Shown here: positions 2,731 through 13,378 of the stretch, piece by piece | How the letters are laid out: each line of letters begins with the position of its first letter | Position numbering within the stretch: the stretch's first letter is position 1 | Source: a virus | DNA: 25,426 nt | Virus record (IMG/VR): IMGVR_UViG_3300034407_001302 | Coordinates: 1-25,426 of that record | Strand: one strand, 5' to 3' | Position numbers and translations under genes: made by a program | Notes under the pieces: generated by a model | What the model was told of the DNA's origin: nothing | The model's input: only the letters and a program-made list of their open reading frames with translations | Database searches by the model: none

Positions 2731-2988
2731 TTACCATTTTTTACAAGACCAATATCTTGCTTTTGTTTTAGGACCGGGATTAGAACAATTATGTCTTGCT
2801 CTAAATGATTTCCTAGCCTCTTTATTACTTTTTCTTATTCTCATATTAGGGTCGCCAAATGTTACTCTTTTAACTTTACTTCCATCTTTGACAAATACTT
2901 GGAACTTCTTCTTTCCATAACTTGGCTGACCTTTACTTATACGAGAGGGTTTATTTAATTTTACTGTTCTGCCTCTATATTTAGCCAT
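2731..2988 (-). CDS. Small basic head-module protein, 85 aa
   Basis: Very rich in Lys and Arg: it begins MAKYRGRTVKLNKPSRISKG, has FGDPNMRIRK near the middle and ends with SFRARHNCSNPGPKTKARYW then SCKKW. The C-terminal RxSFRARHNC...PGPKTKARYWSCK stretch with two cysteines is one I recall from small proteins, or C-terminal domains, of many marine phages. Its function is unknown to me; the basic charge suggests DNA contact in the capsid. It overlaps the preceding gene by TAATG, with GGAG 5 nt upstream of the ATG. Confidence 0.75.
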   Translation of the reverse strand: MAKYRGRTVKLNKPSRISKGQPSYGKKKFQVFVKDGSKVKRVTFGDPNMRIRKSNKEARKSFRARHNCSNPGPKTKARYWSCKKW

Positions 2989-3233
2989 TACTTCTCCATT
3001 AACATTTCTTCTATTCTGTCAAATCTTTCATCTATTTTAGTTTCTATCTTTGCAGTTGTTACTTTTAAGTCAGTAATATCTCTCTCGTTTTTTGATACTC
3101 TTTTAACTGTGTTTTTTTGTTCTGTTTCTAAATTCTCAATTTTTCCTGTATATGTTCCTGATGTAAAAAATAATGTTCCTACCACAGTTGCTATTGTAAA
3201 TATTGAGCCTATTGATATAGTTGTATCAATCAT
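2988..3233 (-). CDS. Membrane-anchored coiled-coil protein, 81 aa
   Basis: An N-terminal hydrophobic segment at about residues 5-26 (TISIGSIFTIATVVGTLFFT) is followed by a charged coiled coil up to the end (NLETEQKNTVKRVSKNERDI...ERFDRIEEML). This is the shape of inner-membrane spanins, haemolysin XhlA-like proteins or tail/head accessory proteins. It directly follows a second membrane/coiled-coil gene (102 aa) with an 8-nt overlap, so the pair could form a holin/spanin-type lysis unit. It is, however, separated from the endolysin by the capsid genes. SD GGAGGA lies upstream of the ATG. Confidence 0.65.
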   Translation of the reverse strand: MIDTTISIGSIFTIATVVGTLFFTSGTYTGKIENLETEQKNTVKRVSKNERDITDLKVTTAKIETKIDERFDRIEEMLMEK

Positions 3234-3534
3234 CTTTCATTCCTCCTTGTTCCATCATTCTTAGGAACTTATCTTTTAAACCATTACCTGATAGTCTTGC
3301 TATTATCTCTACTTGTGCTTTAAAAATACCATTAAGTTTCTTCTGTTCCATCTGCACTCTTTTTTGTTGGTCTATTAGTTTAATAATAATACCTTCCAAC
3401 CTCTTGAAATCTTGGTCTAGTTCTGTCATTAGAGTTTCTTGTATGAATCTGTTTTGTTTCCATATAAAGAATCCGAATGCTATTGTCATTGATACAGGTA
3501 TTCCAAATTGTTCCAATATTGTAAAAAAATCCAC
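3226..3534 (-). CDS. Holin-like (BhlA/UviB-type) membrane protein, 102 aa
   Basis: Short N-terminus MDFFTILEQFG, one membrane segment at about residues 11-26 (GIPVSMTIAFGFFIWKQNRF), then a long helical charged tail (RFIQETLMTELDQDFKRLEG...). This resembles BhlA/UviB-type phage holin-like proteins: short outer part, single membrane span, coiled-coil tail. It starts with GTG sharing a base with the upstream TAG stop, with GGGAG 9 nt before. With its 81-aa partner it forms a membrane pair inside the head module. Holin is the best guess; a membrane-bound virion component is the alternative. Confidence 0.6.
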   Translation of the reverse strand: MDFFTILEQFGIPVSMTIAFGFFIWKQNRFIQETLMTELDQDFKRLEGIIIKLIDQQKRVQMEQKKLNGIFKAQVEIIARLSGNGLKDKFLRMMEQGGMKDD

Positions 3535-4301
3535 TACTTTTTACTCCCATTTATTTCTTCTCCCCATAATATTGTTTTACCTTTGATTATTTCAACTATT
3601 TCTACATTATAATTTCCATTGTTATAAAAGTTTATTATTGCGAAAGCATGATTCCAATTTGTTAATTTTCCTCCTAACCAATCTTCGTCATGTTCTATGT
3701 CTTTTAGACAACCTAAACTCCAAGCACTTTTAGTTCCATCTAAATCTGTACTTGTGTATCTTTGTAAATCGTGAGTATGTCCATACATTATAGATTTACC
3801 ATAATGGTCAAGATGTTTCCAAGCATGATACTTAGTAGTAAACTTTCCATGAGTAAAATGTAACTTTCCTATACTTAATGGCTTTTTTCTATTGTATGGG
3901 TGAAATTCATAACCTCGCTGTTTTAACTTTAAAGCATTTTCAGTTTTGTAATGTTTTAAATAAGGATATTTAACTACAAAATTATCTAACCAAACTTCAT
4001 GATTTCCTTGAACAAAATGTCTTTCATTACAACCTATTTTATTTAGCGACCTATCAATTTGATTCATTCCTTTGTTTACTGCTTTTACATCTTTATCTAA
4101 AAGAGGAATCAAATCTTCTAAAGGTTTTTGATTTTTACCTTTCCAATAATGTTTACTAAAATATTCCCATTCTCCTGTGTCGCCTAAATCTACATATATA
4201 TCAGGTTTGACTTTTTCTATTGCCTTACAAACAACATTAATTGCTTTTTGACAATGAATTGGAAAGTGCTTATCAGGTGTTACAATAGCAGTTTTTGTCA
4301 T
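3534..4301 (-). CDS. Calcineurin-like metallophosphoesterase
   Basis: A 255-aa protein with the metallophosphoesterase signature in order: TPDKHFPIHC (D10, H12), YVDLGDTGEW (D41), QGNHEVWLDNF, FTHGKF and MYGHTHDLQRY. These supply the two-metal site that hydrolyses phosphodiesters or phosphomonoesters. Spacing and length fit the family, and no key His or Asp is missing. It overlaps the upstream head protein by ATGA and the downstream gene by one base, so it is translated with the structural train. The substrate cannot be deduced; nucleic-acid end processing or nucleotide hydrolysis during packaging or infection are options. Confidence 0.88.
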   Translation of the reverse strand: MTKTAIVTPDKHFPIHCQKAINVVCKAIEKVKPDIYVDLGDTGEWEYFSKHYWKGKNQKPLEDLIPLLDKDVKAVNKGMNQIDRSLNKIGCNERHFVQGNHEVWLDNFVVKYPYLKHYKTENALKLKQRGYEFHPYNRKKPLSIGKLHFTHGKFTTKYHAWKHLDHYGKSIMYGHTHDLQRYTSTDLDGTKSAWSLGCLKDIEHDEDWLGGKLTNWNHAFAIINFYNNGNYNVEIVEIIKGKTILWGEEINGSKK

Positions 4302-4792
4302 TTTTTACCTTCCGTTGATGCTTTAAATTTAATAGGTTGGTCTAAGTTCTCTCCTTGATATTCAACAGGAACTAATTGACAATTACAATTAGTACCACAC
4401 ACACTAAACTCACTTTTAGGTAGTCCAACTGTACTAAAATAACTTATATCTCCTGTCATACCATGTCTAGGTTTACAATCAGGACATATATTCTTTCCTA
4501 CTGTAATCCATTTATACTCATTATAATTTGCTTGTCTAAACTTTTGTAAAGAAGCAATATTACCTGCTTCTTCTATAGCATTTTTTGATATTCTATTTAC
4601 ACCATTTTTAAGTTGTCCAAATATTCTTCCGCCTGTTACTAAATCTGCTATTAATATTTTTCTAACTTCTGCTTGGCTCATTCCTGATAAAGACATTGAA
4701 TTTATCTTTGATAATAAATTAGAGGTAACAATTAATGCTAAGTCGTCAAATTGTTTAGATACTTTAACTTTTAAATCTTCGTATGTTTTCAT
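4298..4792 (-). CDS. Phage minor head protein, SPP1 gp7/Mu F-like C-terminal type
   Basis: A 164-aa protein. The C-terminal half has the cysteine pattern of phage head-morphogenesis proteins: WITVGKNICPDCKPRHG at about 94-110, then GLPKSEFSVCGTNCNCQLVP at about 123-142. This W-x7-CPxC...RHG...GLP...C...CxC layout is known from the Mu F/SPP1 gp7 family, which joins portal and procapsid. It is shorter than full-length members and lacks most of the usual N-terminal half; residues 1-90 are helical. ATGA overlaps tie it to both neighbours. Confidence 0.75.
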   Translation of the reverse strand: MKTYEDLKVKVSKQFDDLALIVTSNLLSKINSMSLSGMSQAEVRKILIADLVTGGRIFGQLKNGVNRISKNAIEEAGNIASLQKFRQANYNEYKWITVGKNICPDCKPRHGMTGDISYFSTVGLPKSEFSVCGTNCNCQLVPVEYQGENLDQPIKFKASTEGKK

Positions 4793-5235
4793 AGTCTTTT
4801 ATATAGTTTTACTAACTCTTTTTTAAGTAATCTTTCTATTTTTTTTATAGTTTGTGGATAAATATCAAACCATTCCCTCTTAGGAGGCTTACCTTTTACA
4901 TCTCCTCCTTTGTCATGCCATTGTGCTATTTTTGCTCTTTTATTAGCAACTCTTACTTGTGTTTTACCATTCTTTGTTGGTTTAACAGGAGGTAATTTTC
5001 TCATCATTCCTGTTGCTACTAAAGGTTTTATTGGATAACCTTTTTTAACTTTTTGTTTGGCGGTAGATAATTTCACTTTTGGAATTGGACCTCTTGGTCC
5101 TTTAGATGTGTCTAGTCCTGACTTTATGTCTTTGACGTTTATTTGTGCTGATAAAAATATAACTTTATCAATTGTTTTTTTGATATTGTCTTTAAAATCT
5201 ATTTGGTTTTTTATCTTTTTAAATTCTGCTTTCAA
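4789..5235 (-). CDS. Tail-completion/virion morphogenesis protein, HK97 gp10-like
   Basis: A 148-aa basic protein. Residues 80-130 contain YPIKPLVATGMMRKLPPVKP, then AKIAQWHDKGGDVKGKPPKR and EWFDIYPQTIKKIERLLKKE. The pattern L-xxTGxMR...A-x-xH-xxG...xPPRxWF/D is shared with Mu gpG and HK97 gp10-type proteins, which act at the head-tail junction or tail terminator. The start is a TTG overlapping the 3' end of the 80-aa gene; no better start is visible. Family membership is moderately sure. Confidence 0.7.
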   Translation of the reverse strand: MKAEFKKIKNQIDFKDNIKKTIDKVIFLSAQINVKDIKSGLDTSKGPRGPIPKVKLSTAKQKVKKGYPIKPLVATGMMRKLPPVKPTKNGKTQVRVANKRAKIAQWHDKGGDVKGKPPKREWFDIYPQTIKKIERLLKKELVKLYKRL

Positions 5236-5461
5236 TGCTATTTATTATCTTTTCGGCTTTTTTTTCACCTGCTTTTATTGCTTCTTGTATTTCATCTATA
5301 TTACTCTCGTAAAATTGTTTACCTAATTCTTTCATATATGCTTCAGGATTCAACATAAGAGCATCTATATCAATAACTTCTAATATTTTTGTAGATTCTT
5401 TTTCTACTCTATCTTGTAAAACAACTACTTCATTAAGATACGTTGTTAGTGTTTTCGCCAT
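5219..5461 (-). CDS. Hypothetical helical head-module protein, 80 aa
   Basis: All-helical charged protein (MAKTLTTYLNEVVVLQDRVE...) without membrane segments or cysteines. GAGG stands 7 nt before the ATG. It overlaps the portal gene's 3' end by 29 nt and the next gene by 17 nt, so it is embedded in the portal-to-connector block. I do not recognise a family. Its position and size would fit a small head-tail or chaperone-like protein. Confidence 0.6.
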   Translation of the reverse strand: MAKTLTTYLNEVVVLQDRVEKESTKILEVIDIDALMLNPEAYMKELGKQFYESNIDEIQEAIKAGEKKAEKIINSIESRI

Positions 5462-6758
5462 TGTTGCCTCTATTCAATGTAAATATGTTTTGTGGTGTAT
5501 CTGTTTCTACTTTTTTATCTTCTAAATATTTGATAGCAGTTTCTCTATCAGGAAACTTATCAGGGTCATTATGCATTAGATAATCATACTTATCAGCTAA
5601 TCCATGTTTAAACTTCCAATCCCATTCTTGTAATTCTCGTTCAGGGTCAGGGAATTTTACTTCTGTAAAGTCTACTGAAAAATCTTCAGGTAGATTAACT
5701 CCTGTTTCTGTTTGTGATATAACTTTCTCTATCTCATACATTTGTTTTTCAATTCTTCTAAATTTTTCTACTTCATCTTCTCTTGCTTCTAATAACTCTA
5801 AGTTTTCTAATTTTAATGCAACTCCTGATTTACTTCCTGATAAACCAAAGTCAAAATTAATATTATTATTATAAGCGATACTCTGTAATTGGAATTTAAT
5901 ACCTTCCATAATGTCTGATACTTGTATATTACTAGATATATTTTTCATTCCACCTTCATCTAATACAACTACTTTATTCAATCCTAATTGTATATTGCTT
6001 GCGTCTACTCTACCTTCTATAACATACTGACCTCCTGAACTTCTTATTTGATGTTGTAACATAGTCATAGCAATATCAATCTGCTTGTTACCTAATGCTA
6101 TATCCATAGCACCTTCATTAAAAAATTCATCTACCATACTGTTTGGTTGTAAAAATACAAAAGGTAAAACCCCATACGGATTAACATCTTCTTCATTTAT
6201 ATGAATAATTCTACCTGAGGTATCAAACATAAAATGTTGGTCTTTAGTCCAATAAACGTAAATGTCTTCATCTACTGCATTTATGTCTGCAATTCTTTTG
6301 TTTAGAATATATACAAGCCCTATTGGTTCTAAAGGATTCATTTCATCAAATATTGGTTCAAAATTTATAATAGGATTATATACAAATTTATTTTCATTCC
6401 ACCCTATGTGAATAGGTAATGTTCCAAGTAAGTTATGTATACGTTCAAAAGATTTCATTTTCCAATCTTTATCTATTGCATAACTTTCATAATTATCTGA
6501 TTCAATATTTCTAATTGGTGTATCTTTATATACTAATGATATTCTGTTGATTAATTTTTTTGTGAGGTTTATATTGTATAAAGGAATTTCTTGTTGTAAT
6601 GTTCCTCCAAAGTATTGGTCTATATATTTTGCTGTATTATTAAAAGTATAATAATCTAATGCCTCATCTCTAAGTTCCATTATCTTAGAATGATTTCTCC
6701 ATTTTAAATTTTGTATACTTTCTTTTATAACTTGTTCTGCACTGCTAAAAAATATCAT
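5433..6758 (-). CDS. Portal protein
   Basis: A 441-aa protein directly downstream of the large terminase, the standard portal position. It has portal-like features: helical N-terminus with LDYYTFNNTAKYIDQYFGG, NLTKKLINRISLVYKDTP at about 64-81, a middle strand-rich part with VYWTKDQHFMFDTSGRI, NPYGVLPFVFLQPN at about 196-209, then the long helical stem VDEFFNEGAMDIALGNKQID and MTMLQHQIRSSGGQYVIEG. The acidic C-terminus is also typical. It forms the dodecameric DNA-entry ring. A strong SD (AAGGAG) precedes the ATG. The length suits siphovirus portals. Confidence 0.88.
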   Translation of the reverse strand: MIFFSSAEQVIKESIQNLKWRNHSKIMELRDEALDYYTFNNTAKYIDQYFGGTLQQEIPLYNINLTKKLINRISLVYKDTPIRNIESDNYESYAIDKDWKMKSFERIHNLLGTLPIHIGWNENKFVYNPIINFEPIFDEMNPLEPIGLVYILNKRIADINAVDEDIYVYWTKDQHFMFDTSGRIIHINEEDVNPYGVLPFVFLQPNSMVDEFFNEGAMDIALGNKQIDIAMTMLQHQIRSSGGQYVIEGRVDASNIQLGLNKVVVLDEGGMKNISSNIQVSDIMEGIKFQLQSIAYNNNINFDFGLSGSKSGVALKLENLELLEAREDEVEKFRRIEKQMYEIEKVISQTETGVNLPEDFSVDFTEVKFPDPERELQEWDWKFKHGLADKYDYLMHNDPDKFPDRETAIKYLEDKKVETDTPQNIFTLNRGNNGENTNNVS

Positions 6759-8048: not shown

Positions 8049-8394
8049 TATCAAATCCTTCCACTATATCATCTTCTATTAATGTAGGTTGGTCTGCTTG
8101 TCCTAAATATTGTTTACCTAAAAAGATTAACATAGGAACTGAACCATCATTTTTATACTTAATTTTACCTGTTTCTTTATCTTTGTATGGTGTTCCTAAT
8201 GCTCTCTTCCATTGTGCTTGTCTAAGTCTTATTTTTCCTGCTTGTCTTCCTTTTGTTAAATATTCCGAATAACTCTTTTCTAAAAGGTCAGAACTGCAAC
8301 CAAATACAGAAGCAATTTCTATATTTGTACAACCAAAACTTGCTAGTTTTTCTACTTGTTCTACATCTATGTTATATTTTTTAGGTCTAGCCAT
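8014..8394 (-). CDS. terS: Small terminase subunit-like DNA-binding protein
   Basis: A 126-aa protein starting MARPKKYNIDVEQVEKLAS. Residues 10-40 form a helix-turn-helix (ASFGCTNIEIASVFGCSSDL), followed by a helical region (GRQAGKIRLRQAQWKRALGT) and a lysine-rich linker. This Lys-rich HTH layout directly upstream of terL is typical of small terminases, which recognise the packaging site. The C-terminal tail is acidic. SD GAGG precedes the ATG, which overlaps the ParB-like gene by 8 nt. Confidence 0.8.
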   Translation of the reverse strand: MARPKKYNIDVEQVEKLASFGCTNIEIASVFGCSSDLLEKSYSEYLTKGRQAGKIRLRQAQWKRALGTPYKDKETGKIKYKNDGSVPMLIFLGKQYLGQADQPTLIEDDIVEGFDIEVISSVPTSE

Positions 8395-9004
8395 TTAATG
8401 CCTCTGCTAATGCATATTCAAATGCTTTTCCATCTGTTTCATATCCACCAATTTCTTTAACTTTATCTTTCCACTTTAACCACATATCATACGTTGCTTG
8501 TGGAACTACTAATTTTATACTCTTTAAATCTTCTTCATCATATACAGGCTCTCCTTCATCTTCCCAATCAAAGTCTAGCATATTTTCAAGGTTTTCCATT
8601 TCTTCTACTGTATCAGGCATAAATTCTGCTAGTTCTTCTATAGAAAATTCTGTTAATACTTCATTTTTAAATAAGTCTGCATAGATTGTTAAATCATCAT
8701 CAAACCATTTATGATTTCTTCTTCTTGCTATTGTTATTGCTTTTGCTTTACTTATTTCTCCAAAGTTTTCACAAGGAACTTTTTTATACTTCATTCGTAT
8801 AAGTGCTTCAAGCCTATGATTACCATCAATTACTTCAAATTTATCTCCAACCTCTCTAACTGCTAACACTCCTACTGAATTATCTTGTTTAATACTATTA
8901 ATTAACTTTTCTATTTGTTCATCAGTACCATCTGTTTTATAGTTCCAATCTGCTTTGATTAAATCTTTTATATTCATTTTCACTAACTGTGTTTTTAATG
9001 CCAT
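8387..9004 (-). CDS. ParB/Srx-fold protein beside dpdA
   Basis: A 205-aa protein with a ParB/sulfiredoxin-fold N-terminal domain: LVKMNIKDLIKADWNYKTDG, SIKQDNSVGVLAVREV and the signature FEVIDGNHRLEALIRMKYKK (about 56-75), followed by AKAITIARRRNHKWFDDD. ParB-fold domains bind or hydrolyse nucleotides and some are nucleases. In bacterial Dpd systems DpdB, a DndB-like protein with a ParB-type domain, works with DpdA to insert the modified base; this gene overlaps dpdA by 10 nt, so a DpdB-like helper role is attractive inference. The alternative is a packaging-linked ParB nuclease, since terminase genes follow directly. The acidic middle part (DFDWEDEGEPVYDEEDL) resembles phage methyltransferase-linked ParB proteins. 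SD AGAGGA supports the ATG. Confidence 0.8.
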   Translation of the reverse strand: MALKTQLVKMNIKDLIKADWNYKTDGTDEQIEKLINSIKQDNSVGVLAVREVGDKFEVIDGNHRLEALIRMKYKKVPCENFGEISKAKAITIARRRNHKWFDDDLTIYADLFKNEVLTEFSIEELAEFMPDTVEEMENLENMLDFDWEDEGEPVYDEEDLKSIKLVVPQATYDMWLKWKDKVKEIGGYETDGKAFEYALAEALNG

Positions 9005-9858
9005 ACTATTCCTCTCTTATTCCATAAATTTGTATAATAATCTTGCATTTGTTTATATGCTTTTATTGCTAATTGCATTGTATATATTCTTGTTACTTTT
9101 TTATCTTCTCCACGCAAAATATTCAAATTCATACTTTTAGGTTTTTTTAAAAAGTGTTTTTCTTTGTTATAACTTAAACAAGTAAGTTTACCTTTATCAA
9201 AATATGGTATTGTTCCATACATTTGTGGTTGTAACCAACTTGCACTATCTACTGAGTAAAAAGGATAATTTTTTAATACTTCTATTTTTGTCATAGCAAA
9301 TCCATGAACTTTTATGCCTTGTTTATAGGCAGGTTTTAGATATTTATTATAATTTAATCTTGTCCTACCTTTTCTATCTCCTTCTAATGCTACATATCCA
9401 CTTTGAGTTTGTTTTAACATTTCTAAGTAATCTTTCCAATTACAACATCTTGGGTGGTAAACAGTTACACACTTATCAAATATATTATTATCTATAAGTT
9501 GTTGCCTCCATTGATTTACTTTTTTTTGTCCAACTATTTCACCTATGTCTAATTCTGCATAATAGTCATAATATTTATAGTTTTGAACTAACCATTTTAA
9601 ATAGTCAGCCATATACTCATCAGGTGTTCCTTTTGTTTTATTTTTCTTTTGTTTATTATTTGCACTAACAATACTTTCGTGTTCTGCAAAAAAACTATGC
9701 GCACCACTATCAATAAATACTAAATTATGATTTTTTTTAGCATTTTTAATACATTTTTTACCTGACCTTATATAGTAATAAGAATAAAAAGCATTTTTAA
9801 TATCACTTGCTACTAATTGTGGTCCTCCTTGCTCTACTCCTGCTAGATATATTTTGAT
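8995..9858 (-). CDS. dpdA: DpdA-like DNA transglycosylase with non-canonical start
   Basis: A 287-aa TGT-related protein that exchanges guanine for a 7-deazaguanine base in DNA. Reading the frame upstream of the first ATG (9612) adds 82 codons that carry essential motifs: MKIYLAGVEQGG at the N-terminus and FIDSGAHSFF at about 48-57, matching the TGT DSGGF motif (D50). Further motifs are YYAELDIGEIVG (D104), VYHPRCCNW, GYVALEGD, and VHGFAMTK followed by YPFYSVDSASW (D204, likely nucleophile). Between the upstream in-frame TGA and 9612 there is no ATG, GTG or TTG. The best start is ATC at 9858, 6 nt after AAGGAG; ATT at 9864 abuts the SD. It overlaps the glycosyltransferase gene by 16 nt. Family assignment is strong; the exact start codon is inference. 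Confidence 0.85.
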   Translation of the reverse strand: MKIYLAGVEQGGPQLVASDIKNAFYSYYYIRSGKKCIKNAKKNHNLVFIDSGAHSFFAEHESIVSANNKQKKNKTKGTPDEYMADYLKWLVQNYKYYDYYAELDIGEIVGQKKVNQWRQQLIDNNIFDKCVTVYHPRCCNWKDYLEMLKQTQSGYVALEGDRKGRTRLNYNKYLKPAYKQGIKVHGFAMTKIEVLKNYPFYSVDSASWLQPQMYGTIPYFDKGKLTCLSYNKEKHFLKKPKSMNLNILRGEDKKVTRIYTMQLAIKAYKQMQDYYTNLWNKRGIVWH

Positions 9859-10793
9859 TTCAATCTCCTTGCAGTATGTTCAAAGTTTATTACATCATAA
9901 GGTGTTGGTTTTATATAATTTTCTATATAAGAATGTATCATTTCTACTAATCCCGGTAATGTTTCATATCTATATGCAGTATTAATAGTTTCTTGGTAAC
10001 TCAATCTATTAGGACTTAAAGGAATACAACCTAAATTCATACTTTCTAACATTGCAATACCAAATGTTTCTTGTTGTGCAAAACTCAACGATATTTTTGC
10101 TCTTGATAATAAATTATAATATTCATCTTTACTTTTGCATTTTTCGGCTGTTTTTACCCACTTTATCTTGTTTGGATATTTATTATTATATAATTTTTTT
10201 ACATAGTCAAACATATCAGGTTGCTTTTCAGGAGCGAGTCTATGTGGAAATACAATTATATCTTCTTTCTTTTTTGGTTTATGATTATCTAAAAATATAG
10301 GAAATTTATCAACTGTTATGTGCTTAAATGGAAACACTTTTTGTATTAATTTTTTGTGATATTTTGTTGCAACTATTATTTCATCTGCTACCATACCCAT
10401 ACTAAATTCTAAACCTCTACACCATTTGTGTAATTCTTTTTTATACAAAAAATCATTTTTATCCCACGTTCCTGCGTGTAAATAACCTACTATTTTAAAT
10501 TTCATATCAAGACAATCTCTTATGTATGCAACATTAGTTACAATAGGATTCCATAAATCTAAAAATAACAAAGTATCATTATTAGTTATTTTACCTTCTT
10601 TAATCATATCACATATTTCAATGCCTTGTTGTAATTTAAATTTATTAGTACCTATTACATCAAGAAACTCTCCATCATATATTTCTTGTATTTCTTCACT
10701 ACCAATAACACCATCAACATAATTTTTCCAATCATCTAACCATTGTTTACTATATCTTTTATTGATTGGTTCTATATGTACTAAATATATCAT
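9843..10793 (-). CDS. GT-B (GT4-like) glycosyltransferase in the modification cluster
   Basis: A 316-aa protein. The C-terminal half has a GT4-type nucleotide-sugar site: IIVFPHRLAPEKQPDMFDYV at about 180-199, YYNLLSRAKISLSFAQQETF then GIAMLESMNLGCIPLSPNRL at about 227-266 (an E-x7-E-like pattern), and SYQE. The N-terminal half has VGYLHAGTWDKNDF and DEIIVATKYHKKLI, as in the acceptor domain of GT-B enzymes. It is soluble. It lies inside the deazaguanine gene train, overlapping dpdA and the 139-aa gene, so glycosylation of phage DNA or of a modified base is a natural hypothesis. Modifying virion protein or host surface is the alternative. Confidence 0.8.
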   Translation of the reverse strand: MIYLVHIEPINKRYSKQWLDDWKNYVDGVIGSEEIQEIYDGEFLDVIGTNKFKLQQGIEICDMIKEGKITNNDTLLFLDLWNPIVTNVAYIRDCLDMKFKIVGYLHAGTWDKNDFLYKKELHKWCRGLEFSMGMVADEIIVATKYHKKLIQKVFPFKHITVDKFPIFLDNHKPKKKEDIIVFPHRLAPEKQPDMFDYVKKLYNNKYPNKIKWVKTAEKCKSKDEYYNLLSRAKISLSFAQQETFGIAMLESMNLGCIPLSPNRLSYQETINTAYRYETLPGLVEMIHSYIENYIKPTPYDVINFEHTARRLKSKYI

Positions 10794-11209
10794 TCGTTAT
10801 TTCTATCATATTTGTAGTTATCAGGTTGAATTTCCATCAAGTGGCATTTAGTTATTTGATATACACGATACCAATCATCATCTAATGATACAGTATCAGT
10901 ATCTTTTAATTTTCTTACATTGTCATCTTGTATTCTATATATAATATGAACTCGATTATATATTCCTATTGGTATTTTGTTATATGTTTGTTTATCTGCT
11001 TCAATAGTTATGTATTGTTTTGTGTCTATTAAGTTGTATAATGTATCAAATGAACTTTCTTTTATACAACTTCGTATATATTCTATTGTGAAATATATAT
11101 GCGGATATTCTTTGTAATTTTTGGGTATTGTTTTTCTTACAAATACAGTTTCAACATCTGATAATCTACCTTCTACTTCTTTTCCATACCAATAACCTTT
11201 GTTATACAT
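10790..11209 (-). CDS. Conserved-looking phage protein, 139 aa, unknown
   Basis: Starts with MYNKGYWYGKEVEGRLSDVE if the ATG at 11209 is used; GGAG lies 9 nt upstream and the start overlaps the previous stop by 8 nt. In-frame ATGs further up give a few extra residues without better SDs. It is a mixed alpha/beta soluble protein with VFVRKTIPKNYKEYPHIYFT near residue 23-42 and WYRVYQITKCHLMEIQPDNY near the end. I do not recognise an enzyme motif. Its position between the QueD-like gene and the glycosyltransferase suggests a part in making or attaching the modified base. Confidence 0.6.
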   Translation of the reverse strand: MYNKGYWYGKEVEGRLSDVETVFVRKTIPKNYKEYPHIYFTIEYIRSCIKESSFDTLYNLIDTKQYITIEADKQTYNKIPIGIYNRVHIIYRIQDDNVRKLKDTDTVSLDDDWYRVYQITKCHLMEIQPDNYKYDRNNE

Positions 11210-11546
11210 ACACTTCTGCTCCATTCTCATTATCTTCAAATACTGAACAATATTCTAAATCAAAAAATTCTAATAACTCTGTTGCAAGCATTTCACAACT
11301 TCTATGTTCAAAGAAATGTATTCTCATCTCCTCATCATAATAATTGAACTTTAAATAATCAATTACGTCTTTTTTAAAAGTTATAAATTCAACATCTCTA
11401 TCATTATGTAAAACTCTTTTTTTGCATTTTATGTAAAACATATGCCTGTGCATATATTTTAAGTATCGTGCTTCACCTTTAGCTTTTCTCCATTGGTGTA
11501 ATCCTTCTACTTGTAGTTTTACTACTATATTTACTGTCTTGTTAAT
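11202..11546 (-). CDS. Small QueD/PTPS-like (T-fold) protein with AUU or AUA start
   Basis: The first in-frame ATG (11453) would give 83 aa, but 31 further codons upstream are open and encode VKLQVEGLHQWRKAKGEARY then LKYM, which runs into HRHMFYIKCKKRVLHNDRDV. The whole pattern (VEGxHxW, then HRH-hydrophobic, DRDVEF, SCEMLATELLEFF, VFEDNENGAEV) resembles a small phage protein family I recall, and the QueD/PTPS T-fold layout (H-x-H, D-x-EF, pTxExxA, V-x-E). No ATG, GTG or TTG exists between the upstream TGA and 11453. ATT at 11546 has GAGAGGA 8-9 nt upstream and gives 114 aa; ATA at 11528 is the other option. It lies between folE and a hypothetical gene. A role on 7-carboxy-7-deazaguanine is inference. 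Confidence 0.7.
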   Translation of the reverse strand: MNKTVNIVVKLQVEGLHQWRKAKGEARYLKYMHRHMFYIKCKKRVLHNDRDVEFITFKKDVIDYLKFNYYDEEMRIHFFEHRSCEMLATELLEFFDLEYCSVFEDNENGAEVYV

Positions 11547-12361
11547 GCTAAAAATTCCTCTCTTGCTATCATATCATCTTTCATTGCACCCATCAAACAA
11601 CTTGTAGTCATTTCTCCACGTTTTTTTACACCTCGCATTTCTTGACATAAATGTCTACCTCTTGCTATAACACCAATACCTTTTGGTTTTAGTTTTGACC
11701 ACAAATAATTAGCAATATTATTTGTAAAATATTCTTGTGTATTTAACATTTTAGAATAATACTCTACTGTTCTTGGTAATTTAGATATACCAATAATATT
11801 TTTATCAGGTATGTAACCAATATCAACTGTACCAAAGAATGGTATCATATGATGTTCACAAAACGTGTAAAACGTGATTCCTTTTTCTAAAATCATTTGG
11901 TCATAACCTTGTGCATCAAATACTGTTGGATTAAATTCAGGAGGTGTAGTTAATTCTTTCCAAGCTTTTGCTACTCTTTTAGGTGTATCAATTAATCCTT
12001 CTCTTGTTGGGTCTTCTCCTATACGTTCTAATACTCTAACTATATCACTTTCAAAACCTCTATCAAAACTATTCTCCCAAGGAAAGACTATCCAAGGTAA
12101 ATTAGGTTCAATTCTTTTGTCATACAAAAATCTCATTTCTTTTTTGTATTTTTTGTATTTGTTAGCAGTGTCGCCACTATCGTATATATCATCTATTATA
12201 ACATCACAATCTTCTATGTTATTAACAGCTCTACCTGTTAAACCTGCTATAACTTGTCCACCTCTTGGTATTCCATAATACTTAACATTAGGGTTGTGGT
12301 CTTTTGTTATTTCATGTAATCTTTTATATATTTCTTCCCATGTTACATTTTGAGATTTCAT
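11531..12361 (-). CDS. folE: Phosphoribosyltransferase-like domain fused to GTP cyclohydrolase I
   Basis: A 276-aa fusion. The C-terminal part (about 100-276) is FolE: RIGEDPTREGLIDTPKRVAK, the zinc motif FCEHHMIPFFG (C168, H170) and ARGRHLCQEMRG (C239). It converts GTP to dihydroneopterin triphosphate, the first step of 7-deazaguanine synthesis. Residues 25-75 look like a small type I PRTase domain: YYGIPRGGQVIAGL and CDVIIDDIYDSGDTANKY, the PRPP-binding loop. I start at the ATG at 12361, which overlaps the queE stop (ATGA) and has GGAG 6 nt upstream; an ATG at 12373 lies in-frame without SD. The PRTase part may salvage guanine to feed GTP; that is inference. Confidence 0.88.
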   Translation of the reverse strand: MKSQNVTWEEIYKRLHEITKDHNPNVKYYGIPRGGQVIAGLTGRAVNNIEDCDVIIDDIYDSGDTANKYKKYKKEMRFLYDKRIEPNLPWIVFPWENSFDRGFESDIVRVLERIGEDPTREGLIDTPKRVAKAWKELTTPPEFNPTVFDAQGYDQMILEKGITFYTFCEHHMIPFFGTVDIGYIPDKNIIGISKLPRTVEYYSKMLNTQEYFTNNIANYLWSKLKPKGIGVIARGRHLCQEMRGVKKRGEMTTSCLMGAMKDDMIAREEFLALTRQ

Positions 12362-12990
12362 AGAATACTCCATAATTTATGTTGCTGAACACTTAACTTC
12401 CATAAAGGATTGTCTAAACACATCTGTATACAATGTTCTAAATTTTCATTATTTATATTTTGTCCATCAAAATGTGGACTTATATAATAATTTTCAGACT
12501 GTATTTTTGTTTGTGGTATTTCTTGTCCTTTATGTCTAACCCATCTTAATTCGTTACAGTGTATATCTCCATCTAAAACATTCCATTTTTTTAAAATAAC
12601 ATGTTCTGCTACTTTTGGAGAAAGTACAACCCAATCACATAAAGGAGGTTGTTTTATTCCTGAACATTCAATAGCATTTTTATAGCCAAGATGTTTATAG
12701 TAATCTAATATTTCTTGATTAAGTTGGTCTGTTGGTTCTCCTCCTGTCCATACAATCCATTTACAATTATATTGCGATATATATTTATGTAAATCATTTA
12801 ATAACCATTCTTTACCACTTGTAAATTCTGTGTCGCATCTAACACCTGATTTATAACAAGCATTTTGTGCTGAACAACCTTGGAGTCTTATAAATATACT
12901 TGGGTGGCCTGCTCTATAACCTTCGCCTTGTAGTGAATAAAATATTTCACTAATCTTTAACGTATATTGCGGAGTTTTTACTGTGTTCAT
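12358..12990 (-). CDS. queE: QueE-like 7-carboxy-7-deazaguanine synthase (radical SAM)
   Basis: A 210-aa protein with the QueE order of motifs: EIFYSLQGEGYRAGHPSIFI at 15-34, the iron-sulfur segment RLQGCSAQNACYKSGVRCDT at 35-54, WTGGEP at 81-86 and a C-terminal LSPK motif with SVQQHKLW near the end. It would turn 6-carboxytetrahydropterin into 7-carboxy-7-deazaguanine. The cysteines are spaced C-x5-C-x6-C (39, 45, 52) instead of the usual CxxxCxxC, though RCDTEF is retained. It overlaps queD by 41 nt and has only a weak SD, so coupling to queD is likely. Confidence 0.88.
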   Translation of the reverse strand: MNTVKTPQYTLKISEIFYSLQGEGYRAGHPSIFIRLQGCSAQNACYKSGVRCDTEFTSGKEWLLNDLHKYISQYNCKWIVWTGGEPTDQLNQEILDYYKHLGYKNAIECSGIKQPPLCDWVVLSPKVAEHVILKKWNVLDGDIHCNELRWVRHKGQEIPQTKIQSENYYISPHFDGQNINNENLEHCIQMCLDNPLWKLSVQQHKLWSIL

Positions 12991-13378
12991 ATACTTCTAC
13001 TTTCTCAACTTTTATATTTTCAGGTGTATTCTCGTTTATAATTTTATAACAAAATTCTGCAAACTTTTCAATACCAACACCTTCTTCAAATATTCTTAAT
13101 TGAATAATGTTATAATAATCTAATCTTTTAAATGTTTCTAATTCAGGGTCGTCTTTGGCAATACATGTTTTGTGGTCAAAATAATCTTGTAGGATACTTT
13201 TTATTTTTTTGAATCCTCCAAAATCAAAAACCCAATTACGTTCATCTAATCCTGTTTTACTTCTTAACCATACTTTACAATACAATTCATATCCATGTAA
13301 GTATTTACAATGTGAATCTGCTTTCCATTGTCTAAAACATGTACTGCCTAGTTCTATTATCTTAGTACTCTCGTTCAT
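12950..13378 (-). CDS. queD: QueD-like 6-carboxytetrahydropterin synthase
   Basis: A 142-aa T-fold protein. Visible motifs are CFRQWKADSHCKYLHGYELY at 14-33 (H23, C24, H28), LDERNWVFDFGGFKKIK at 44-60, YFDHKTCIAKDDP at 66-78 (the Asp-His pair of the active site) and a C-terminal VEVYEHSKNSA. HGY replaces the usual HGH, so one zinc ligand may differ; SHC-x3-LHGY is a variant I recall in phage homologues. It makes 6-carboxytetrahydropterin from dihydroneopterin triphosphate. It starts inside the 3' end of the HNH gene without a clear SD, implying coupled translation. Confidence 0.87.
   Translation of the reverse strand: MNESTKIIELGSTCFRQWKADSHCKYLHGYELYCKVWLRSKTGLDERNWVFDFGGFKKIKSILQDYFDHKTCIAKDDPELETFKRLDYYNIIQLRIFEEGVGIEKFAEFCYKIINENTPENIKVEKVEVYEHSKNSAIYVKD

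Follow-up and report, generated by a model that had tools for sequence, protein, structure and literature searches.

The locus described here can be compared with two kinds of described system. TGT-like proteins have been found in phage genomes together with FolE, QueD, and QueE, as reported by Hutinet et al. (2019, PMC6884629). As to start codons, the infC gene, which encodes IF3, starts with ATT in E. coli and with ATC in Streptomyces, IF3 represses starts of the AUH type, and in sigR of Streptomyces a GTC start within a translationally coupled operon has been experimentally proven to lower protein output, as described in one source (PMC5472188). According to another, AUU, AUA, CUG, and AUC yield 0.1–0.3% of AUG in E. 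coli, as compared with 5–20% in Clostridium butyricum and 7–17% in C. sporogenes, in one of two contexts (PMC9680021). The initial annotation of the present locus held that ATC starts are very rare, which is right, though one is known from infC of Streptomyces (PMC5472188). Our search of open-licence papers turned up no phage gene reported to start with ATC.

We analyzed the uncultivated-virus contig IMGVR_UViG_3300034407_001302; the whole stretch of 25,426 bases (G+C 28–31%) is called the window. Its terminase is about 35% identical to those of phages of several Gammaproteobacteria, no match was found for the gene at 5433-6758, and a comparison of 8 kb of the window with phages gave no DNA match. 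The minus strand carries an operon in the order QueD, QueE, phosphoribosyltransferase-like/FolE, a gene that we call gene X, a 149-aa ORF, a glycosyltransferase, dpdA, a ParB-like gene, and terminase genes. The main features are as follows.

12950-13378, minus strand: QueD-like 6-pyruvoyl-tetrahydropterin synthase (phrog_2389)
12358-12990, minus strand: QueE-like radical SAM protein (phrog_2076)
11531-12373, minus strand: GTP cyclohydrolase I (FolE), phosphoribosyltransferase-like in its N-terminal part
11202-11546, minus strand: gene X, function unassigned (phrog_17812), with a proposed ATT start at 11546-11544
9843-10793, minus strand: glycosyltransferase (group 1) gene (Pfam PF00534)
8995-9858, minus strand: dpdA, TGT-like (queuine tRNA-ribosyltransferase family), 287 aa (phrog_887, E 1.1e-30; TGT fold, Z 16.4)
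8387-9004, minus strand: ParB-like gene downstream of dpdA, which served as bait for relatives

The phosphoribosyltransferase-like part of FolE matches phrog_8995 weakly and is present in two related loci, L009 and L051, too. We noticed no QueC-like gene near FolE, QueD, and QueE (window 8995-13378); because the record is a fragment, this may mean nothing.

The assignment of DpdA rests on its phrog_887 match and its predicted fold. There was no Pfam or NCBIfam match, and the 26 phage records that matched the protein all did so at less than 60% identity (e.g., 25% over 90% of the query). In VIA-align 2, the match of an AlphaFold model (pLDDT 75, with residues 1–7 poorly modelled) to tRNA-guanine transglycosylases starts at residue 1 (Z 16.4 for 1iq8), and the best 50 rows were all TGTs, with Z 16.4 to 15.3, 255–265 residues aligned, and rmsd 3.5–4.1. 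The model also aligns with viral queuine tRNA-ribosyltransferase models. Foldseek against PDB returned nothing at E <= 0.001 and no TGT among the matches listed; VIA-align 2 applied to Foldseek's PDB list ranked TGTs first. The DSG motif (D50-S51-G52), whose aspartate we take to be catalytic, is invariant in all eight DpdA sequences compared, and FolE, QueD, and QueE are present in the dpdA neighborhood.

On the minus strand, the open frame of dpdA extends from 9879 to a stop that ends at 8995. From an ATC at 9858-9856 to the first ATG, 82 codons pass without ATG, GTG, TTG, or CTG. This had been claimed in the initial annotation, together with an AAGGAG 6 nt before the ATC, and the letters confirm both points. 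Three features define the region.

9865-9870, minus strand: AAGGAG, Shine-Dalgarno-like, 6 nt ahead of the ATC (spacer ATTGAA)
9856-9858, minus strand: ATC, which faces the Met codon of all close relatives in the alignment and is the most likely start of dpdA
9610-9612, minus strand: first ATG in the dpdA frame; a start here drops 82 residues including DSGAH

With seven codon types checked (ATG, GTG, TTG, CTG, ATT, ATC, and ATA), the frame ahead of ATG 9612 contains only ATT 9864, ATC 9858, ATA 9852, and further ATT and ATA codons, and the candidate with the best Shine-Dalgarno spacing is the ATC. The arrangement AAGGAGN6ATC was found once in the window against 0.12 expected from shuffles. Because Shine-Dalgarno sites are common at the gene starts of this window, the AAGGAG would suit an ATG here equally.

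Close DpdA relatives occur in ten viral contigs (L023 and L027 to L035), are 49–58% identical to the window protein, and are in some cases nearly identical among themselves. In every one of these contigs an ATG faces the window ATC, and a larger alignment (A3) used as the query returned the same 10 loci as A2. A scan with the pattern KI[YF]LAGVE, which is blind to the start codon, matched 18 loci, seven of which are DpdA by profile (six from contigs already among the relatives and one more distant, L142); ATG stands directly ahead of the motif in all seven, and the other 11 loci gave no profile match. Furthermore, the first 82 codons, which include the DSGAH motif, are conserved like the rest of dpdA (identity 0.57 vs 0.58 with L035). 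Based on the ATG of the relatives, the conservation of these 82 codons, and the fold match from residue 1, the predicted N-terminus of DpdA is the residue encoded at 9858. The initial annotation had regarded MKIYLAG as a natural N-terminus and the part upstream of ATG 9612 as translated; the Met aligned there in 10 of 10 contigs and the fold match bear this out, as does the homologue alignment that it had proposed as a check, in which no relative starts at 9612.

The junction with the upstream gene bears on the origin of the ATC. The glycosyltransferase gene ends at 9843 and overlaps the ATC start by 16 nt. In five of seven relatives compared (L023, L027, L032, L034, and L035), the dpdA ATG overlaps the upstream TGA as ATGA; the upstream stop is 3 nt further on in L028 and just before the ATG in L029. 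The glycosyltransferase ends in KRLK-stop in L035, whereas in the window RRLK is followed by SKYI and a TAG at 9845-9843. Thus, one G-to-C difference at 9856 accounts for both the lost dpdA start and the four-codon extension of the upstream gene, and this joint loss of start and stop by one base has the appearance of a single event, either mutation or miscall. The ATC occurs at the dpdA start of one contig only and is common to no relative. Peptide patterns from the window dpdA matched 32 stretches, none of them a relative, no hit came from an exact DNA pattern that allowed C or G in the start codon, and a scan of genome contigs for a sibling gave one distant locus only. Across 88 columns that are otherwise invariant, the window dpdA shows 3 private departures; since this lies within the range of the other sequences (1 to 14), nothing marks the contig as rich in errors. 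Of the ATC initiation proposed in the initial annotation, the start position stands; the real genome may carry the ATC, and a miscall is a rival because the codon is one base from the ATGA overlap of the relatives.

Gene X is a second gene of the operon that lacks a standard start. It was listed at 11202-11453 from its first ATG, and its relatives align about 30 residues further upstream: phrog_17812 matches the extended gene from profile position 3, as opposed to 37 with the listed frame. The upstream part holds no ATG, GTG, TTG, or CTG. Among 80 viral loci with gene X relatives (2 partial loci and 1 at an edge were left out), a standard start is present in 77 of the 77 evaluable (ATG in 70, GTG in 4, and TTG in 3). 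Compared by eye with L009, the junction shows no indel and several substitutions, with ATG facing ACA. We propose ATT 11546-11544 as the start, and the distance from this codon to the conserved NIVV is the same as that from the Met of L051. One further signal lies upstream.

11556-11563, minus strand: AGAGAGGA, Shine-Dalgarno-like, 9 nt ahead of the gene X ATT

An alternative candidate start would be ATA 11528, just past the FolE stop. Relative to the rest of the gene, the N-terminal part is about as conserved as in other pairs. In 39 invariant columns, gene X shows 4 private departures, more than any other of the nine sequences (0 to 3), and this excess may reflect faster change or errors at gene X. 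The overlap of FolE with gene X, at 16 nt, is the same as that of the glycosyltransferase with dpdA; equal overlaps at the dpdA ATC and the gene X ATT may be due to chance.

We also surveyed how common such starts are among the relatives. The count covered 31 sources, the window among them, once 25 loci that were duplicates or lay on the same contig, and then L032, had been removed. It took in 318 stop-to-stop ORFs, antisense included, that have homologues in another source; 25 were flagged as aligning upstream of their own first standard start, and 17 of these were rejected as shadows of longer ORFs. Eight were left: two window genes, the terminase of L034, a ParB-like gene in each of L034 and L051, and single ORFs of L009, L052, and L056. 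The missing standard start is supported by 17 of 18 homologues for dpdA and by 10 of 12 for gene X, and with the shadows removed these two window genes are the only ones with such support from many homologues. The flags on the two ParB-like genes were judged spurious because their own ATG fits, and the ORFs of L009, L052, and L056 have a single supporter each. In the large terminase gene of L034 (4364-5569, plus strand), a nucleotide-binding loop, which we take to be the Walker A motif, lies upstream of the first ATG, GTG, or TTG; there is one supporter among the loci, and CTG codons stand at the expected start position. This case seems real, with a probable CTG or ATA start, and because of it the relatives are not a perfectly clean control. 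Its apparent CTG start is a departure related to the putative AUH starts of dpdA and gene X. Start codon choice may be loose throughout this group, or errors may be common to its contigs. A cruder earlier tally covered 78 homologue starts and, in the narrow range tested, found no standard start for 7; six were gene X, with the N-terminus set too late, and one was the dpdA of Bacteroides phage BS162P1 (L002), which has an ATG further upstream. The latter gene (2923-3891) is annotated from 3064 and its homology extends upstream, so that the in-frame ATG at 2923 appears the likelier start.

We favor, with a probability of about 0.5, the hypothesis that a real ATC start replaced the ATG of dpdA and is used weakly; we infer the presence of ATC in the real genome, its use, and the extent of that use. 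The start codon would have changed from the ATG of an ATGA overlap with the glycosyltransferase stop to ATC, and ribosomes would initiate at the AUC at a low rate, aided by the AAGGAG, a strong site at a distance of 6 nt, and perhaps also by re-initiation of ribosomes finishing the glycosyltransferase 10 nt downstream, with fMet inserted at the AUC to give MKIYLAG. Non-AUG start codons tend toward stronger Shine-Dalgarno sites, as reported for GUG and UUG only (PMC5622118), and mutant initiator tRNAs allowed re-initiation from a non-AUG codon, which shows only the tolerance of the system (PMC2268962). Against a genuine ATC stand its occurrence in one contig with no relative sharing it, the single base that explains both oddities, and the putative nature of the gene X start. 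The main competitor is a sequencing or assembly error at base 9856, the true start being an ATG in an ATGA overlap. The ATG in all ten relatives, the same TGA at the end of the upstream gene in five of the seven compared, the economy of one base explaining why the start is gone and why the upstream gene is longer, and the origin of the record as an uncultivated-virus contig all speak for such an error, which we consider possible. It is countered by the absence of an excess of private changes in dpdA and by gene X, which also lacks a start and differs there from L009 by more than one base. Because the loss in gene X goes beyond what one miscall explains, genuine weak AUC initiation is favored as somewhat more likely than error.

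A real ATC could also be damaging: the variant would make DpdA in small amounts or not at all, and decay may extend to gene X. The low yield of AUC in E. coli (PMC9680021) fits this idea, as do the loss of two start codons within one operon and the report that a one-base start mutation of this type, ATG to ATA in rpoS, arose in laboratory culture (PMC12864459). The frames of dpdA and gene X are otherwise intact, and conservation of the gene X N-terminal part, measured against the rest, does not fall below that in other pairs, which argues against decay, although a recent change would give the same picture; we regard damage as unlikely. Similarly doubtful is an extension of the preferred reading to both genes, whereby dpdA (AUC) and gene X (AUU) would both have lost the ATG located at the stop of the preceding gene and now use AUH starts, each with a Shine-Dalgarno site and a 16-nt overlap, their output being set by IF3 stringency or re-initiation. 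A fusion produced by ribosomes shifting −1 from the glycosyltransferase into dpdA has in its favor that dpdA lies in the −1 frame and that an A_AAA tetramer (ending at 9852) follows AAGGAG by 9 nt. This tetramer is the weakest shift-prone one tested in E. coli according to PMC4066793, no X_XXY_YYZ heptamer can be read in the overlap, folding around the start and overlap is ordinary (z −0.10) with no stimulator, and the relatives have separate genes, making a frameshift very improbable. Translation from ATG 9612, ahead of which the frame has no standard start codon, would give a shorter protein that loses 82 conserved residues with DSGAH, and no aligned relative starts there; we consider it just as implausible. 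Frameshifting, the internal ATG, and a special RNA structure were accordingly set aside.

Several neighboring observations concern the modules around dpdA. The glycosyltransferase lies between FolE and DpdA in the window (9843-10793) and in several relatives (7021-7959 in L051), and it might act on the modified base. L009 has a similar order (QueD-QueE-FolE-X-...-ParB) with no glycosyltransferase and, as judged by eye, a clearly different DpdA-like protein in place (4120-5004); its DpdA module seems to have been exchanged. In the faecal phage record MT835482 (L003, 2911-5109), DpdA has 732 aa; SDSS and TTWLGG are separated by an in-frame insert that by eye looks like an intein.

Within the preferred reading of weak AUC initiation, the suggestion in the initial annotation that low initiation could keep DpdA scarce is speculative, and the relatives use ATG. 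Should they be genuine, the two AUH starts of this phage operon would offer a natural system for studying initiation stringency or coupling as dose control of modification enzymes. Gene callers depend on ATG, GTG, and TTG, as stated in PMC5472188, and genes such as dpdA and gene X are therefore shortened or missed; standard annotation of dpdA would lose the DSG motif of a predicted DNA-modifying enzyme.

Like the phage DpdA proteins described with preQ0/dG+ pathway genes (PMC6884629), the window combines a TGT-like protein with FolE, QueD, and QueE; it differs from them in that no QueC was noticed in the fragment, a glycosyltransferase precedes dpdA, and the sequence is distant. The putative start codon of dpdA is of the AUH type, like that of infC, and dpdA has no NTG in frame near its conserved N-terminus and a Shine-Dalgarno site at normal spacing, as infC-type genes do. 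Unlike the infC codon, which is well characterized and serves autoregulation (PMC5472188), the ATC of dpdA is found in one contig, with ATG in the relatives, so that the AUH start is not kept among them. With sigR, as described in the same source, dpdA would share a non-standard start, here ATC rather than GTC and read from sequence. If genuine, the ATC start of dpdA would be a further case of the AUC starts already known from infC of Streptomyces.
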